DNA of 64,000 nt from a virus: positions 124,001 to 188,000 of IMG/VR virus record IMGVR_UViG_3300032325_000466; one strand, written 5' to 3'. The notes under the pieces are model-generated. The model did no database searches, was not told where the DNA came from, and saw nothing but the letters and a program-made list of their open reading frames with translations. Numbering within the stretch: position 1 is the stretch's first letter; each line of letters opens with the position of its first letter. A program made the translations under genes and the position numbers. Below are positions 7,429 to 16,367 of this stretch, piece after piece.

Positions 7429-7959
7429 ATGGCACAAGAAATTATTAATATTGGCGCGCAAGCGAATGACGGTGAAGGTGACCCCCTACGCACGGCCTTT
7501 ACTAAAGTAAATAACAACTTTACTCAGTTATTTGCTACTGCATATAATACTGCTGAAGTAATCACTTACGGGAATACTGCTCAAGAGATTTTTAGTATCT
7601 CTGCAAATGCTTTTACTCAAGGCATATTTCAAATTAACTCAGTTGCCGCTAATACATCAGATAGTCAAAACATCACTATAACTGCTGCTATTAAAGATGA
7701 CCAAACAGGAGTAAAATACACTGGCCACAGCGCACTATTTAATGGTAATGCTATAACTCAATACAGCATGATAGTAGCAGATAGTAATGTAATACTGTTA
7801 GTTAATCCCTTTATAACAGGTCAAATGATCAACTTTATAAACTATCAAGTAACTTATAATAATGCAGTTCCTGGAATGAGTTTAGCACTAAATCAATCTC
7901 CTACAAATGTTCTAGGAACAGAATATCTACAACCTATTACTACTCAGCAGGCGTCATGA
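7429..7959 (+). CDS. Virion structural / tail-fibre-type protein (176 aa)
   Basis: The N terminus carries a motif typical of phage fibre and appendage proteins: NDGEGDPLRTAFTKVNNNF (about residues 14-32). The rest is rich in N, T, I and A with predicted beta strands, as in fibre or decoration domains. It has its own late box. It overlaps (ATGA) the first capsid-targeting-like gene. The exact location in the virion is unknown. Confidence 0.7.
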   Translation: MAQEIINIGAQANDGEGDPLRTAFTKVNNNFTQLFATAYNTAEVITYGNTAQEIFSISANAFTQGIFQINSVAANTSDSQNITITAAIKDDQTGVKYTGHSALFNGNAITQYSMIVADSNVILLVNPFITGQMINFINYQVTYNNAVPGMSLALNQSPTNVLGTEYLQPITTQQAS

Positions 7960-8330
7960 GAGCTAAAGAGTTTATAACTGAACAAAACAAGTTACCTGAT
8001 CGAATTACCAATCCATTACCTGCTACTTGGGTAATACCAGAGTTACAAAATCAAAATGCATATTTACAATATAGATTTTCTGTGGCATTGGCCGGTGCAC
8101 GAGCGGCTCGCAACGGCGATATACCTAAAATAGATAAAGATACGGTTTGGGGAGAAAATCAAATCGTATCAGGCTACATGAATCCAGATATAGAAGAAGA
8201 TATTGACTTTGCTTTAGGTGAAATGGGCCTTAAAGGTAAATTATTAGTCACTAGTAAAGAAAGTGAAGAAACAAGTGATACCGATATCCACAGTCCTTTA
8301 AATCCTTTTGCGGGATACAAAAGAAAATGA
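7956..8330 (+). CDS. Putative capsid-internal protein with MRAxEFITE leader (124 aa)
   Basis: Starts MRAKEFITEQ. The leader resembles the capsid-targeting sequences of T4 internal proteins (MKT-x-x-EFI-x-E), and I-T-E fits the I/L-x-E cleavage rule of the T4 prohead protease. The mature part would be about 115 aa, mixed helical, ending in NPFAGYKRK. The next gene has the same leader and the same F-x-GYK-[RK]-K end. I infer packaging in the head and possible injection into the host. Confidence 0.6.
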   Translation: MRAKEFITEQNKLPDRITNPLPATWVIPELQNQNAYLQYRFSVALAGARAARNGDIPKIDKDTVWGENQIVSGYMNPDIEEDIDFALGEMGLKGKLLVTSKESEETSDTDIHSPLNPFAGYKRK

Positions 8331-8704
8331 GAGCCAGTGAATTTATAACTGAAGCTAAGATGGGTAAAATATCCAAACATCAACAACAACCTACCCGCGG
8401 GTTAAATATTTTTACAAAGAAAATGGATACTTATGATAAGCTATATGATTTAAATCGTTTAATGATGGCTGTCGCAAGTAGCGATGGTATAAACCCAATA
8501 GAAATGCCTGCTGAAAGTTGGGTAGGTAAACACAACACGGCACATGCTTACACTAAAGAAGAACAAGCTATGCTTAATATGGCATATAAAGCGGCTGGCT
8601 TAGAGTATATAGATTTAAATAATGGTGATTTAGATAGCGAAGAACTATCTGATACAAATACTCAAAGTATAGTAAAACCATTTAAAGGCTATAAGAAAAA
8701 ATAA
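8327..8704 (+). CDS. Putative capsid-internal protein, paralogue (125 aa)
   Basis: Starts MRASEFITEAK, giving an I-T-E/A cleavage site at residues 7-10, and ends PFKGYKKK. Coupled by ATGA to the upstream paralogue. Both have a related middle: the upstream copy has W-G-E-N-Q-I-V-S-G-Y and this one has W-V-G-K-H-N-T-A-H-A-Y at similar positions. It is likely a tandem duplicate that has diverged. Confidence 0.6.
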   Translation: MRASEFITEAKMGKISKHQQQPTRGLNIFTKKMDTYDKLYDLNRLMMAVASSDGINPIEMPAESWVGKHNTAHAYTKEEQAMLNMAYKAAGLEYIDLNNGDLDSEELSDTNTQSIVKPFKGYKKK

Positions 8705-9989: not shown

Positions 9990-11543
9990 ATGAGTAAAAC
10001 TGGAACAGCCTCACTAGTTAAAAACCCATATGTAAAGACCCACTTCGCCAATCAAACGCAGTTAGATGATTTTATGAAGTGCTGCGATCCAGTTACTGGA
10101 TATCTTTACTTTATGAGTAATTTCTTCTACATACAGCACCCAACTAAGGGTAGTATGGCGTACCAGCCATGGGGCTATCAAAAGCGACTAATCGATACTT
10201 ATCATAATTATCGTTACTCAATATCACTTATGCCTCGACAAAGTGGTAAATCTACTTCGGCTGCTGGGTATTTGCTATGGTACGCTATGTTCGTACCTGA
10301 CTCTACTATATTAGTTGCTGCACACAAATATACTGGCGCACAAGAAATTATGCAGCGTATTAGATATGCATATGAGAATTGTCCAGATTATATCAAAGCA
10401 GGTGTAACAACATATAACAAAGGGTCATTGGATTTCGAAAATGGTAGTCGCATTGTTTCAGCAACTACTACTGAAAATACAGGTCGTGGTATGTCTATCA
10501 CACTGTTATACTTAGACGAGTTTGCGTTCGTTAGACCAAGTATTGCTAAAGAATTTTGGACTGCTATAACTCCAACTCTATCCACTGGCGGTAAGGCGAT
10601 TATCACTTCAACTCCAAACTCAGATGAGGATCAATTTGCTTTTATTTGGAAAGGCGCTAACAAAACAGAAGATGAGTTTGGTAATACTACCCCAGTTGGA
10701 ATAAATGGATTTAAAGCATATCGAGCGCATTGGAGCGAACAGCCAGGCAGAGATGAAAAATGGGCTGAGGGAATGAAAGCCCAACTTGGAGAAGATCGTT
10801 TCAATCGAGAAATAGGATGCGAGTTCATTATTGCTGATGAAACACTGATTAATCCAAATACTCTTATTCAACTTGAGGGAATTGAACCCGTTACCCGTAT
10901 AGGACAAATTCGTTGGTATAAAAAACCTGAAAAGGGCAATATCTATTGTGTTGGACTAGATCCCAGCATTGGTACAGGCGGCGATCCTGCTGCTATACAA
11001 ATATATGAAGCAAATACTACTACTCAAATTGGTGAGTGGAAGCATAATAAAACTGATATTCCTAATCAAATTAAACTACTATCACAAATAAACAAGTATA
11101 TTGTAGAATGCACCGATGAACCCGATAATCTTTACTATTCAATAGAGAATAATTCTATAGGCGAAGCCGCACTAGTATCACTCAATGAATATGGGGAACA
11201 CAATATACCAGGTGCTTTTTTAAGCGAGCCAGGTAAAAAGCGTAAAGGTTTCACTACAACTAATAAGTCTAAAATACAAGCTTGTGCCAAGTTCAAAACA
11301 CTAGTAGAAAATAAAAAACTAAAAGTAAATAGTCGCAGTCTTATATCTGAATTAAAAGCATTTGTAGCAAGTGGTGGTAGTTATGCGGCCAAAATAGGTG
11401 ATACCGATGATTTAATTATGGCTACACTATTGGTTGTTAGAATGTTTCAACAACTAAGTGATTATCATTACAATTTAGAAGAACAAATTAAAGACCACAG
11501 TGAATTTTTAGCTCCGCTACCCTTTTATGCAATATTAGGATAA
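9990..11543 (+). CDS. 17: Terminase large subunit gp17
   Basis: DNA-packaging motor ATPase plus headful nuclease. Walker A-like MPRQSGKST at 81-89. Walker B LLYLDEF with catalytic E177. The nuclease domain contains GLDPSIGTGGDP with D324, E385 in YSIENN, and D473/D474 in TDDLIMA, matching the RNase-H-like acidic triad of gp17. At 517 aa it is somewhat shorter than T4 gp17 (610). No intron or intein is evident. The usual following gene in T4 (gp18) is instead at 57781, so the late block has been rearranged. Confidence 0.95.
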   Translation: MSKTGTASLVKNPYVKTHFANQTQLDDFMKCCDPVTGYLYFMSNFFYIQHPTKGSMAYQPWGYQKRLIDTYHNYRYSISLMPRQSGKSTSAAGYLLWYAMFVPDSTILVAAHKYTGAQEIMQRIRYAYENCPDYIKAGVTTYNKGSLDFENGSRIVSATTTENTGRGMSITLLYLDEFAFVRPSIAKEFWTAITPTLSTGGKAIITSTPNSDEDQFAFIWKGANKTEDEFGNTTPVGINGFKAYRAHWSEQPGRDEKWAEGMKAQLGEDRFNREIGCEFIIADETLINPNTLIQLEGIEPVTRIGQIRWYKKPEKGNIYCVGLDPSIGTGGDPAAIQIYEANTTTQIGEWKHNKTDIPNQIKLLSQINKYIVECTDEPDNLYYSIENNSIGEAALVSLNEYGEHNIPGAFLSEPGKKRKGFTTTNKSKIQACAKFKTLVENKKLKVNSRSLISELKAFVASGGSYAAKIGDTDDLIMATLLVVRMFQQLSDYHYNLEEQIKDHSEFLAPLPFYAILG

Positions 11544-11554
11544 TTCATACTTTA

Positions 11555-11562
11555 GATAAATA
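11555..11562 (+). promoter_or_regulatory. T4-type late promoter box (GATAAATA)
   Basis: GATAAATA 20 nt upstream of the 1359-residue gene, marking it as a late gene. Confidence 0.7.
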
Positions 11563-11582: not shown

Positions 11583-14500
11583 ATGCCAAAGAATAACTCT
11601 TCAATCAACAATTCGCTATTTGACCTACTAAAAGGCAGGGGATATTCTCCCACAATGCTTAGTACCGCGGGTAAAGAAATACCTACCCCTGATGAAGCTG
11701 AAGTATTTCAGTTTAATTTTGTAAAAGATGGGGAAGATTATGGTAAAGTAACCCTAACAATAGATGATTCCAGTAACCTGATAGTGTATTATAGCGACGA
11801 TGTTGCTGACAGTGAAAAAGGTAATGGATCAACTTATGATTGGGATGATTTTATTGACAAAGTAAAAGACTTTAAGAAATCCAAAAAAACATCCAAATTG
11901 AAAGAAGAAGATGATGATGATGAGGACTTTAAAAGTGAAGGTGGTGATTTATCTTGGTATGGTTTATTAAATCAATTAAAGCGTTTCGCACAAAGATATC
12001 AACTAAGCTTTGAACTTAGAAACACAGACAATCTAAAGTCTGATATGGCCAAAAGAGATTATATGAAGAAACAAGACCAAATTTCAGAAAGCAAAAACCA
12101 TAGTATGGCGGAAGGTTACTCACTAAAGAAAACTAATGTTGAAAAAACATTTGATCCAGGTGATCCTGATGAATACACACAAGATGTCAATACAACATAT
12201 ACTGATTACGAAATTATCAACAATAAGACAGGTCAAGTAGTTGGAACTGCTAGTTGGACTACTAATGATTTTATGGGCCCAGGAGCACTAAAGATTACTA
12301 TGAAGAATGGTGCTACTAGATGGTTAGATATTTGGGAACGAGAAAAGGGTAATCCACAAACAGCATTCAATCGTTTTGTTAAAGATCCCAAAACTGCTAA
12401 GAAGTATAAAGAACAAGATAATAAAGGTGTAACAGAAATGGACAATCGTACCCCAAGTGGTGATCGCAGAGAACAGCGTGCCAATAGCCCAGAAGAAAAA
12501 GCAAAGCGTGAAAAAGAACAACAAGCAAATCTAAAAAAAGTAAGTCCAAAAATGCGCGAAAAATTACGCTTACCTGAACCTAAAGAAGATATGGCAGAAG
12601 GCACTGAAAGTATTCTTGCTCGTGGCACAGAGGTAACTGTTCCACACAGAGGCAAAATGGTGCCAGGCAAAATTCTTAGATATGTTGCTGGTAAAGGTGG
12701 CTATTCAGATGCTTATGTAGTTGATATTGGTGAGTATGAGTCCCTGACTGTACCAACATTTAATGTTAAAACTCAAGTTATGGCGGAAGCCAGCGGTGAT
12801 CAAGTTAAAAAAGTGTTTAAGAAAAATGGTAAGCCAGTAGGTGAAGTTGGTATTGATCCAGAAGCAAGTCCGGGCGTTGGTCAATGGTATATGAAGTGCT
12901 ATCAATACAAAATAGATAATAGTGGCTATGACTCATACGAAGAAGCTGTAGAAGAATTAAAGTATTGTATGAAGCAAGGTATGGTGGAAGCACGAAATCC
13001 AGAAGACTTCATCAAGGATATTAAAAATATTCCCTTACGCCAACGCCAACGAATTGGCAAGTCATTAATCAAACATGCTGAGGAAGCAGGATTAAGGCCT
13101 GAAACAATAAAAGTGGGTTATAGTGAAACAACTGGGGTTTATCAGGTCACCGGTCTAGCCATGAAACACGGTGCGAAATACGACTGGAGATACAAGTCTG
13201 ACCCGGCTACTAATAAAATGGTCTCTCTTGATGCCATGCAATCTGATACTGAGTATGCCCCTGATAAATTTATGCCAATCGTATTTGATAAGTTAGATGA
13301 GCAAGATATGGTGAAAGGCACTGAGGACTCAACTCAAGTATTAAGCGATATTGTTGCTAATGACGATTTTGATGCATTGTATGACTTAATGTCGTCTAAT
13401 ACTGAAGCAGGTAAAATTGTTCAACGAATGTATAACGATGTTGCTGGTGAAGAAGGCTTACATCCAGATGATGATTTTGAACAGATTCTAAACCGTGTGT
13501 TTGATCACCTGTCACAAGATTATGGTCAGCAAGGTATGGAGGAAGGCTTAGGCAAAGATATCAAGCGTTTGGCTACAGGCAAAGATGTTAAAAGTCGTGC
13601 TGGACAAGAAATAGCCAAGTCACAAGATGCCAGTATGAAGGGCGATACTAAAACTTCTAAAAAGCATTTTGACCGCTATGATAAACTAGATAAGTTAGCA
13701 AACAAAGGTATGGCGGAAGGCTGGAATAAGGGACGCCGCGCCGCAGATGTGGATCGGGATGACAATAAAGACCCAGACGATTCATTAGATCAACTCATTG
13801 ATCTGCAAGGACAAAGGGATTGGTTTGCTAAAATGAGTAAGCCTAAGAATATGAGAAACGGCCGCCAGAAGCCAGCTAAGGATGCTATAAAAAGGTTACC
13901 AGTGGCGGAAGGAGCTATAAAGAAATTATCAAAGGGCGCAAAGGTGTATCACACACTTCATGGTACTGGTACTGTTATTGACTTCTCAACTGGTCCTGCT
14001 GCATCTCATTGGGTAGATGTGAAATTTATCAAAGACGGAAACAAAGGCAAGCCTACTAGGGTTGATCGTAAGCAACTTAAGTTAGCAAAAGTTGAAAGTA
14101 TGGCCGAAGGCTATTATGGTGATGATCGTGGTGATTATAGAAAAACTGCTAGGGAAGCAAATGCTGCATCTAGGTTGGCAAAATCATCAAAAACTCATGC
14201 TGAGGCCGCCCGCCTACATAATTTAGCAGCAACATATGCGCTATCAGCAGGCCAAGATCAGTCAGTAATACGCGACCATCAGATGGCAGCACATGAACAT
14301 AATCAGGCTGCAAAAAAATATAAGAAAGGTATGGCGGAAGGCTACACTGTAACTCGTGGAATTGATACAGAAAGATATCAAGAACGCCCGGGATTGGAAG
14401 GTCCCTTTGCTACCAAAAGCGGTAAAGTTGTATACTATGACAAGCGTGAAGGAAAATACTACGATCCCGATACTGATATGTATATTGAATATGATGATTG

Positions 14501-15662
14501 GCAAGCTATGAATGAGCAAGATATGGCAGAAAGTAATCAACAAGTCAATGAAAGTTACTACCCAATGGGCAAACAAGGTAGCTATAGTGATGCTGTACCA
14601 ACAACTAAAATCATTATTCAGCATAGCCGCAGAATAGAAGAAGGTGAGCAGCGTTATCGTAATATCGCTAAAATCTTTGTAGAAAACAGTGAAGGTGAGC
14701 GTTTTGCGGTACCAACTAATAAGCCAGGACTAGCCCGCGTATATGCCCGTCATATAGCAGAGGGTGGCACACCTTATGATGAGCGTGGCCGTCATATTAC
14801 TTCATTAGTAGAAGAATATTCTAAAATGTCTGGCTTTATGCGTGCCACAAGAGGCAAGCAGTTTAATGAGTCAGCACAGCAATTAGTAACCGAAGCTGTA
14901 AATTATTATCAAAGTTTGCGTGAAAGTTTAAGCAAGATGACAGGTCATCGTGGCTATTCAGCATACTTTGAAAGTTGGACACCTTCACTAATGGAAGATG
15001 GAGAAGAACAAGAAACCAATCTTAACGAACTATTCGTACAAGAAACCCTCGACCCCAGAATTGAAAGTGTAATGCCAATCTTAGGTAAGCTACAAAGAAA
15101 ATTGGGCACCATAAAAGAAGTTGATGCACTAGCAGAATGGGCTGATAATATTATTGAAGGTGATGGCGGACAAGAGGCTCTTACCCCACAAGGTATTCCT
15201 GAAGCTGCTGGTCCAGAAACTTTAGCTCATAATATAAGAACCGATCGTAGTAATCTAAAAGCATTTGACTTAGAAGAAACTACTGGTGTAACTGACTATA
15301 ACCCAAAATCTCAGGGTGGTACTAGAGCAGAACTTCTTCGCAAATATGCTAACACTAAAAAGCCAAAAGATGCCGAAGCTGCAAGGCGTGCAGGTGCTAG
15401 CCAGTCAGAATTAAAAGCTGCGGCCGATTCTACTGAAGAAATACATGAAGGTGAGCATGGTCTAGATGAAAACCTAGATGCTAACCAAATTAGTGCAGGA
15501 CAATTGGGCCCTACAGAAAAAGCCAAGTCTATTAGTCCAGTATTAGGTGCTCAACCCAAACAGCATCCTTTTAAAGGCAAGTTAGTTGGTGCTGAAGAAA
15601 GCGTCAATGAAAGTGAAAATGAATTGGCTAGAATTTTACAAATGGTCAAGCATAAACGATAA
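11583..15662 (+). CDS. Putative capsid-internal polyprotein with repeated MAEG sites (1359 aa)
   Basis: A very long, charged, Met/Glu/Lys-rich late gene directly after terminase. The motif [M/V/I]-x-E-[G/A/S] recurs with E at residues 177, 339, 402, 469, 654, 712, 776, 842, 919, 983 and 1060, plus a degenerate MVKG at 576. Most intervals are 58-77 residues. The sequences between sites differ and look like separate small domains. Residues 777-842 resemble an SH3-like barrel (KGAKVYHTLHGTGTV), 843-919 are Ala/His-rich helices, and 920-983 hold a KVVYYDKREGKYYD beta hairpin. T4 gp21 protease cuts after I/L-x-E, so these look like processing sites. I infer a prohead-core or injected polyprotein. 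No enzyme motif is seen. Confidence 0.7.
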   Translation: MPKNNSSINNSLFDLLKGRGYSPTMLSTAGKEIPTPDEAEVFQFNFVKDGEDYGKVTLTIDDSSNLIVYYSDDVADSEKGNGSTYDWDDFIDKVKDFKKSKKTSKLKEEDDDDEDFKSEGGDLSWYGLLNQLKRFAQRYQLSFELRNTDNLKSDMAKRDYMKKQDQISESKNHSMAEGYSLKKTNVEKTFDPGDPDEYTQDVNTTYTDYEIINNKTGQVVGTASWTTNDFMGPGALKITMKNGATRWLDIWEREKGNPQTAFNRFVKDPKTAKKYKEQDNKGVTEMDNRTPSGDRREQRANSPEEKAKREKEQQANLKKVSPKMREKLRLPEPKEDMAEGTESILARGTEVTVPHRGKMVPGKILRYVAGKGGYSDAYVVDIGEYESLTVPTFNVKTQVMAEASGDQVKKVFKKNGKPVGEVGIDPEASPGVGQWYMKCYQYKIDNSGYDSYEEAVEELKYCMKQGMVEARNPEDFIKDIKNIPLRQRQRIGKSLIKHAEEAGLRPETIKVGYSETTGVYQVTGLAMKHGAKYDWRYKSDPATNKMVSLDAMQSDTEYAPDKFMPIVFDKLDEQDMVKGTEDSTQVLSDIVANDDFDALYDLMSSNTEAGKIVQRMYNDVAGEEGLHPDDDFEQILNRVFDHLSQDYGQQGMEEGLGKDIKRLATGKDVKSRAGQEIAKSQDASMKGDTKTSKKHFDRYDKLDKLANKGMAEGWNKGRRAADVDRDDNKDPDDSLDQLIDLQGQRDWFAKMSKPKNMRNGRQKPAKDAIKRLPVAEGAIKKLSKGAKVYHTLHGTGTVIDFSTGPAASHWVDVKFIKDGNKGKPTRVDRKQLKLAKVESMAEGYYGDDRGDYRKTAREANAASRLAKSSKTHAEAARLHNLAATYALSAGQDQSVIRDHQMAAHEHNQAAKKYKKGMAEGYTVTRGIDTERYQERPGLEGPFATKSGKVVYYDKREGKYYDPDTDMYIEYDDWQAMNEQDMAESNQQVNESYYPMGKQGSYSDAVPTTKIIIQHSRRIEEGEQRYRNIAKIFVENSEGERFAVPTNKPGLARVYARHIAEGGTPYDERGRHITSLVEEYSKMSGFMRATRGKQFNESAQQLVTEAVNYYQSLRESLSKMTGHRGYSAYFESWTPSLMEDGEEQETNLNELFVQETLDPRIESVMPILGKLQRKLGTIKEVDALAEWADNIIEGDGGQEALTPQGIPEAAGPETLAHNIRTDRSNLKAFDLEETTGVTDYNPKSQGGTRAELLRKYANTKKPKDAEAARRAGASQSELKAAADSTEEIHEGEHGLDENLDANQISAGQLGPTEKAKSISPVLGAQPKQHPFKGKLVGAEESVNESENELARILQMVKHKR
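12105..14532 (+). repeat. Dispersed 16-bp DNA repeat at module junctions (ATGGCGGAAGGCT type)
   Basis: Near-identical DNA encodes the MAEG sites at 12105, 12591, 12780, 13710, 14100, 14331 and 14523, with looser copies at 12981, 13536 and 13902. GGTATGGCGGAAGGCT is exact at 13708 and 14329. Identity at the junctions, with unrelated DNA between them, suggests module shuffling by recombination. Confidence 0.7.
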
Positions 15663-15794: not shown

Positions 15795-16367
15795 ATGTTA
15801 TTTAGTAAAAAGCATCTACCCGCGGGATTTTATGTGTATTTTTGGATACGAGTAAAAGATTCCCCCATTGCTAAGGCAGGCACTCCTTACTATGTAGGAA
15901 AAGGTAAAAATATTAGGGCTTGGCGAAAGGATAAGCATGGAAAAGATAAATTGGTCATTATTGCAGAATCAAACCTTACTGAATTGGGGGCTCTTTCATT
16001 AGAAAGGCGTTATATCGAATGGTATGGTAGAAAAGATTTAGGTACTGGGATACTTAATAATAAGACTGATGGGGGAGAAGGTGCTACTAATTTTAAAAAA
16101 TCGTATATAAGAAAAAAGAGGTCCATTGCCACAACTACATTAATGAGTCTTACCAAACTTGGCAAAAAATACCCTAAAATAAGTGAGGCGCTTAAAGGTA
16201 AATCTAGGGGAATCAGGACTACTGAATGGAAAAATAATATTGGACTCGCTAAAAAAGGTAAAAAGATATCTCCCCAGGAAGTAGTACAATGCCCACATTG
16301 TAGTAAGGTAGGAGGCAAATCTTTACTAACTCGGTATCATTTTCAAAATTGCAAATTTATTAAATAG
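15795..16367 (+). CDS. GIY-YIG homing endonuclease with C-terminal zinc finger (190 aa)
   Basis: N-terminal GIY-YIG module: FYVYFWIR (12-19) and [13 protein letters not shown] (31-43), then the catalytic-region glutamate in [10 protein letters not shown] and [10 protein letters not shown] Lys/Arg-rich linker follows, and a zinc-finger-like end (CPHCSKVGG...HFQNC) should aid DNA binding. The start is chosen for the AAGGAG 9 nt upstream. It is free-standing between a terminator and gp32, not inside an intron as far as I can see. Such genes spread by cutting an empty allele. Confidence 0.85.

Follow-up and report, generated by a model that had tools for sequence, protein, structure and literature searches.

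A probable head-located polyprotein of a T4-related phage with modules exchanged at prohead-protease-type sites

Directly after the large terminase gene (terL) of the viral record IMGVR_UViG_3300032325_000466 (IMG/VR) lies an open reading frame (ORF) for a 1359-aa protein in which motifs of the MAEG type recur between otherwise unrelated segments. The question that this locus raises is whether the repeated motifs are the cutting sites of a polyprotein and, if so, what the pieces may do. The window, i.e. the whole stretch that was analysed, comprises 64,000 nucleotides (positions 124,001 to 188,000) of the 191-kb record, and the phage is referred to here as G000 or by its own genome. The original prediction, made from the letters of the window, held that the protein is a polyprotein cut by the prohead protease, whose modules are released inside the capsid and possibly injected with the DNA. 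Our analysis indicates that the protein is probably a head-located prohead-protease polyprotein of a T4-related (RaK2/PA5oct-like) phage, which loads swappable cargo into the head. The parts of the chain, in window coordinates, are as follows (arrows in motifs mark the proposed cut).

11583..15662, + strand: polyprotein ORF, 1359 aa; terL-adjacent homologues in >550 viral contig stretches
11583..12089, + strand: N-terminal domain (residues 1-169), proposed propeptide or anchor, ending at ISE169↓S; conserved in relatives
12114..12599, + strand: module 178-339, after MAE177; 63% identical module in relative L001
12600..12788, + strand: module 340-402, by eye resembling SH3; neither a relative nor a Pfam match found
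12789..12989, + strand: module 403-469; no relative found
12990..13316, + strand: module 470-578, ending at the broken seam MVK578↓G; seam DNA conserved, Lys at P1
13317..13544, + strand: module 579-654; at least nine relatives have homologous modules, 37-66% identical, in their C-terminal tails
13545..13718, + strand: module 655-712; weak relative in the tail of L145
13719..13910, + strand: module 713-776; no relative found
13911..14108, + strand: module 777-842, PcrA/UvrD tudor-like; Pfam PF21196, E=0.0052, below the cut-off
14109..14339, + strand: module 843-919, Ala/His-rich; 53% identical in L002
14340..14531, + strand: module 920-983, Tyr-rich, OCRE-like; 89% identical in the tail of L004 and 81% in the insert of L002
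14532..14552, + strand: SNQQVNE990↓S, ancestral-type site before the core; [LIVM]xE↓[GSA] in 45/45 homologues
14553..15152, + strand: conserved core domain (residues 991-1190); phrog_13484 virion structural protein, homologues detected in virions
15159..15659, + strand: variable C-terminal tail with candidate sites at 1192, 1207, 1289, and 1343; tail modules shuffled across relatives

All 11 glutamate positions named in the original prediction were found in the translated ORF, namely E177 (MAEG), E339 (MAEG), E402 (MAEA), E469 (MVEA), E654 (MEEG), E712 (MAEG), E776 (VAEG), E842 (MAEG), E919 (MAEG), E983 (MAES), and E1060 (IAEG), and eight of the 10 spacings fall within the 58-77 residues that it had given for most of them. 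Its description of the junction DNA as nearly identical also holds, an 18-nt unit being present in eight copies that are 78-100% alike with unrelated DNA between them. Compared with residue shuffles of the window protein, MAE[GAS] was seen seven times (shuffled mean 0.06, maximum 2), MxE[GAS] nine times (mean 0.75, maximum 5), and [MVLI]xE[GAS] 20 times (mean 4.4, maximum 12), but the seam copies derive from one another, and these counts are thus non-independent and overstate the independent evidence. The rare codon GCG specifies the seam Ala at five of the eight window sites (8% GCG use in the window) and at 37 of the 83 sites across the family (6% overall). Because this rare codon is kept at the seams, the DNA of the seam itself appears to have been copied, beyond the peptide alone.

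The list of sites required revision in both directions. E1060 (RHIAEGG) is located inside the conserved core and is replaced by Gln in Paride (RHIQQGG); it is probably no junction and was rejected as a module boundary. Sites that had been overlooked include two of ancestral type, ISE169↓S at the end of the N-terminal domain and VNE990↓S before the core, as well as the broken seam MVK578↓G and the four candidate sites in the tail. A reading of ATGGCGGAAGG as a start codon or a point of re-initiation was dropped by eye, since no Shine-Dalgarno sequence is present at a usable spacing and the frame continues through.

A search of viral contigs with a profile of the core found >550 relatives, from which 158 terL-adjacent proteins were extracted. 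These share a fixed N-terminal domain and a fixed core and differ in the C-terminal tail, which consists of modules split by [MVLI]xE↓[GASDN], and a second set of modules, between the N-terminal domain and the core, is present in the window protein and three close relatives (L001-L003). The same layout is found in independent contigs, whereas the order, neighbours, and positions of the modules change between relatives (for module clustering, a first single-linkage run merged 314 segments and was replaced by a stricter procedure). Whole modules have been gained, lost, and moved between MAEG-type sites, which is the outcome of the comparison that the original prediction had proposed as its own test. 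When modules are identified independently of the motif, a site is retained at their homologous boundaries in 68-87% of cases (vs approximately 33% in random windows), and the opposite pattern, in which sites are lost from conserved surroundings, was not seen.

The exchange can be followed at the DNA level. Homology between the window and L003 (92-95%) ends at position 12115, within ATGGCGGAAGG, and restarts at 14511, with nothing shared between; identity between L002 and L003 reaches 99.1% across 2086 nt from the seam onward, but the two carry unrelated inserts. In this breakpoint comparison of close relatives, the seams are identical over 19 nt, and the DNA breakpoints between relatives that are 92-99% identical coincide with the MAEG seam. 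Family-wide, 24-25% of alignment ends (of high-scoring segment pairs) lie within three residues of sites, compared with 10-11% for random positions. The exchanged modules are under purifying selection, as the ratio of nonsynonymous to synonymous substitution rates (dN/dS) has a median of 0.17 over 1667 module pairs and is 0.07 for the Tyr module. At one and the same position in the tails of L002, L003, and L004, there is either a long, membrane-like Gly-zipper segment at the C terminus or an unrelated tail.

The seams can be compared with other prohead-type sites of these phages. The own genome encodes a gp21-family (peptidase S77) protease (PF03420 match, E=2.8e-30) and a gp23-type major capsid protein (MCP). 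At the junction of the N-terminal domain and the core, all 45 homologues, including those of the distant phages RaK2, CBB, and Paride and that of a PA5oct relative, have Glu at P1, L/I/V/M at P3, and G/S/A at P1', with variable residues at P2 and in the flanks. The N-terminal site of the MCP, placed by comparison, reads LLAE↓SS in the own genome (variants LLSE↓SS and LLKE↓SS), FLVE↓N in Paride, ALFE↓S in RaK2, and MLRE↓S in CBB; the alignment with the phage's own capsid protein suggested in the original prediction thus yields agreement between this putative site and ISE↓S, MAE↓G, and VNE↓S in the polyprotein. A leader, MRAxEF[ILV]xE, stands almost invariant before different bodies on approximately 99 distinct neighbour proteins in the relatives and resembles the leader sequence of T4 internal proteins. 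On these small neighbours, it has the look of a capsid targeting sequence. Two such genes precede the polyprotein gene in the window:

7956..8330, + strand: neighbour with leader MRAKEFITE↓Q (MRAxEF[ILV]xE type)
8327..8704, + strand: neighbour with leader MRASEFITE↓A (MRAxEF[ILV]xE type)

In the variable tails, [MVLI]xE[GAS] occurs 2.8-fold over expectation, the corresponding Asp form is depleted (0.41-fold), and the Lys form is near expectation (1.1-fold); Gly (3.1-fold) and Ser (2.2-fold) are preferred at P1' only after [MVLI]xE. Since a plain linker gives no reason for Glu over Asp, a protease rule is favoured. Site enrichment in the own genome, assessed over ORFs of at least 250 aa, is highest in the polyprotein, with 21 sites where 5.4 are expected, and the scaffold protein, with 14 where 2.8 are expected. 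As judged by their sequences, the four separate sets of predicted sites, i.e. the junction of N-terminal domain and core, the MCP, the neighbour leaders, and the module seams, agree on one rule, and we strongly infer that the chain is cut at the seams.

Several observations, besides the shared descent of the seam copies, weigh against cleavage. At MVK578↓G, P1 is Lys and the seam DNA stays conserved, so seam DNA can outlast the motif. Motif-like matches are present within the folded core (at 1020, 1060, and 1104) and in motif-rich proteins that are not known as head proteins, e.g. seven matches in G016:36402, and the motif alone is accordingly no proof of cleavage. Met at P3, which is common in the polyprotein, falls outside the strict L/I-x-E rule of T4. 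Motif density alone was also considered as a detector of head proteins and found unreliable, because other G016 proteins rank high as well.

A location in the virion, in either head or tail, is supported by the core, which matches the virion structural protein family phrog_13484 (E=2.8e-10) and PA5oct (tblastn, 2e-15). The homologues in RaK2 and Paride are 426-499 aa in length and lack the module array. Among the core homologues, CBB_276 was detected in purified CBB virions with eight peptides and 21.7% coverage (PMC5259590), and EST35_0206 of PA5oct is recorded as detected by electrospray ionization tandem mass spectrometry. In an AlphaFold model of a relative, the N-terminal domain has a predicted local distance difference test score of approximately 90 and is followed by a disordered linker at the junction site. 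A Foldseek search of the model of this anchor domain against the PDB gave nothing below E=0.04 and thus no placement of the fold, and against BFVD it gave just uncharacterised phage relatives, one of them named for a large polyvalent protein-associated domain; a PDB sequence search of the module region gave no match up to E=5.

On the proposed model, the N-terminal domain would carry the chain into the prohead core, and the gp21-family protease would then act on the linkers that connect N-terminal domain, modules, and core. Its cuts after [LIVM]-x-E would turn the chain into several individual small proteins within the capsid. The seams would double as short conserved DNA for whole-module recombination and allow rapid exchange of cargo between phages. 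Some of this cargo, at least, would enter the host along with the DNA, as the T4 internal proteins do. The polyprotein half of the earlier interpretation has strong comparative support from module exchange, the rule shared with the MCP and the leaders, and the gp21-family gene, whereas ejection of the cargo into the host and the functions of individual modules are speculative.

If the chain is cut, the pieces could still serve as core or scaffold and be broken down or leave the head during maturation, like T4 gp22, gp67, and gp68, with none acting on the host. T4 core proteins are indeed cut by gp21 into several fragments that mostly exit the head (PMC9026906), and the scaffold of the own genome shows a similar excess of sites. 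A recognisable homologue of this scaffold is, however, present in all three genomes inspected, whereas the module content of the polyprotein differs radically among close relatives and includes, besides a free-standing gene that has been captured, a domain of the sigma-70 region 4 type, and we regard this explanation as unlikely. Rather improbable, in our view, is an uncleaved modular virion protein, in which the seams act as flexible linkers and mark the points of recombination and the MAEG repeats are copied DNA. The retention of the rare GCG codon, the seams identical over 19 nt, and the seam without Glu (MVK578↓G) would all fit such a protein, but it does not account for the enrichment of Glu and not Asp or for the P1' preference for Gly/Ser only after [MVLI]xE. 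Moreover, the site between N-terminal domain and core, of which phages that lack modules at this place have just one, obeys the rule completely in 45/45 homologues amid variable surroundings, and the seams of relatives vary (VDE, LEE, IPE, and VNE) but hold to the rule. It is highly improbable that the variable region consists of sequence under relaxed constraint or in decay, of functionless insertions, or of an assembly artefact: many modules have no relative or known domain, but the frame is open over 1359 aa, independent contigs share the layout, and the dN/dS values contradict it.

What the probable head-located polyprotein carries is illustrated by the Tyr module (920-983). Relatives also have this unit as a free-standing gene that possesses a ribosome-binding site, and it occurs in Vibrio phages. 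The free protein starts MGYRV... and the module MAE↓GYRV..., i.e. the first residue of the module corresponds exactly to residue 2 of the free protein, so a cut after MAE would give the Tyr unit a near-native N terminus. The seven records found with this unit hold one copy each, free in four and inside a polyprotein in three, one of the latter lying in a different, 847-aa polyprotein; the own record may be incomplete, and the absence of a free Tyr gene there is not certain. One module of L004 matches sigma-70 region 4 clearly (E=1.3e-17), and window module 777-842 gave the sub-threshold PcrA/UvrD tudor match listed above. The PcrA/UvrD tudor domain contacts RNA polymerase. Most modules have no known relative, and a Pfam scan of 96 variable regions gave sigma-70 region 4, Gly-zipper (in a few tails), and weak matches, with no clear enzyme array. 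One variable tail, in alignment A4, matches the PADLOC model MzaA (E=2.6e-9), and a module of L123 is also found in G016, directly behind the stand-alone leader MKIQEVLLE↓N.

The injected-effector idea is plausible, resting on the T4 precedent, the one clear sigma-70 region 4 module, the weak tudor match, and the captured free-standing gene, and transcription is, speculatively, the best hint for what ejected pieces might do in the host. A fuller reading, which we put forward tentatively as a serious possibility short of probable, is that of a reloadable cargo system: small accessory genes of the phage itself, as well as foreign domains, would be spliced in frame between the prohead-protease sites of late head polyproteins by seam recombination. 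Once set free in the capsid, with N termini close to the native ones, the products would travel with the DNA into the cell and act before phage transcription.

The surroundings of the gene are conserved, with the order terL, polyprotein gene, ssb, and uvsX common to RaK2, CBB, Paride, and PA5oct and an extra gene between terL and the polyprotein homologue in some of them. The adjoining features are:

9990..11543, + strand: large terminase, fixed neighbour of the polyprotein gene; phrog terminase match
11555..11562, + strand: GATAAATA, element resembling a late promoter, 28 nt ahead of the ATG; conserved upstream of relatives

The exact T4 late promoter TATAAATA is absent upstream of the polyprotein gene, where the conserved GATAAATA is found instead. 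Of 97 relatives, 73 have an element of the form (G/A/T)ATAAATA within 60 nt upstream of the gene, compared with 1.7% of random 60-mers. This distribution fits late expression of the polyprotein gene, and GATAAATA seems to serve this group of phages as its late promoter element. Homing-endonuclease-like ORFs, recognised by eye, are located at 15795-16367 in the window, at 3632-4363 in L004, and near the MCP gene in L005, i.e. directly behind the polyprotein gene and close to the capsid gene. A scan of bacterial genomes for a hint of the host matched just one distant contig of a metagenome-assembled genome.

Further multi-site proteins were found across three genomes, namely G001:202283-204901 (869 aa), G016:80947-83982 (993 aa), and G016:59833-62388 (847 aa). 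The first two are homologues of a second polyprotein-like gene with the same site rule (MDFKKLLSQLDQLHE↓A...) at the end of the own record (L192, G000:C1:189997-191025), in which the unit MRE↓GEGSGSKEELARRIYDLG is repeated right at the contig end, as a real duplication or an assembly end effect. The locus L184 (G016:57000-67000) contains a zincin-like protein (HELVHVKQH) with the leader MRAKEFIIE and a nucleotidyltransferase-like protein followed by modules of the VAE↓G type; these two proteins suggest that enzymes may be among those packaged.

Prohead proteases are known for trimming head and internal proteins singly. If the proposed model is true, large phages would have, in protease sites that also serve as seams for recombination, a general route to change the proteins that they carry, which would help explain the large differences in internal head proteins between related phages. 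The rule [LIVM]xE↓[GSA] beside terL, together with the second gene family of this kind, would offer a genomic handle for finding virion-delivered proteins, and the polyprotein would be a natural model for the delivery of multiple cargoes.

Among known systems, the T4 proteins IPI, IPII, IPIII, and Alt carry a short propeptide ending in I/L-x-E and are cut by gp21, stored in the head in mature form, and ejected, and such internal cargo varies among T4-like phages (PMC9026906). The neighbours of the polyprotein gene resemble them in bearing MRAxEF[ILV]xE leaders. In T4, however, each cargo has one gene and its own leader, whereas here up to approximately 10 cargo units would share one chain and are shuffled at the sites, and the polyprotein has a 169-residue N-terminal domain in place of a short capsid targeting sequence. 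T4 gp22 and gp67 and the propeptides of phiKZ and SPN3US similarly have several [hydrophobic or small]-x-E prohead sites in one protein (PMC9026906, PMC10052503), but their fragments are the remains of scaffolds or propeptides, whereas the predicted pieces of the polyprotein are distinct, recombining, and selected modules. Polyvalent proteins also combine many unrelated domains per chain in variable architectures; they are virion-delivered proteins of phages and conjugative elements, for which proteolytic release has also been considered (Iyer et al. 2017, PMC5512222). They are large enzymatic chains, some with a peptidase domain of their own, in contrast to the units described here, which are mostly 60-80 aa, mostly lack recognisable enzymes, and are parted by the phage's own prohead-protease sites. 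RaK2 ORF112, CBB_276, and PA5oct EST35_0206 share the N-terminal domain layout, the invariant [LIVM]xE↓[SG] junction, the core, and the position between terL and ssb, but at about 426-499 aa this family has no module array, unlike the window protein. Already known are internal proteins that are cleaved singly, as in T4, and polyvalent proteins that stay uncut or cut themselves. In the open-access literature searched, most subscription papers lying outside that search, no description was found of a cargo polyprotein that is based on prohead-protease sites and recombines.

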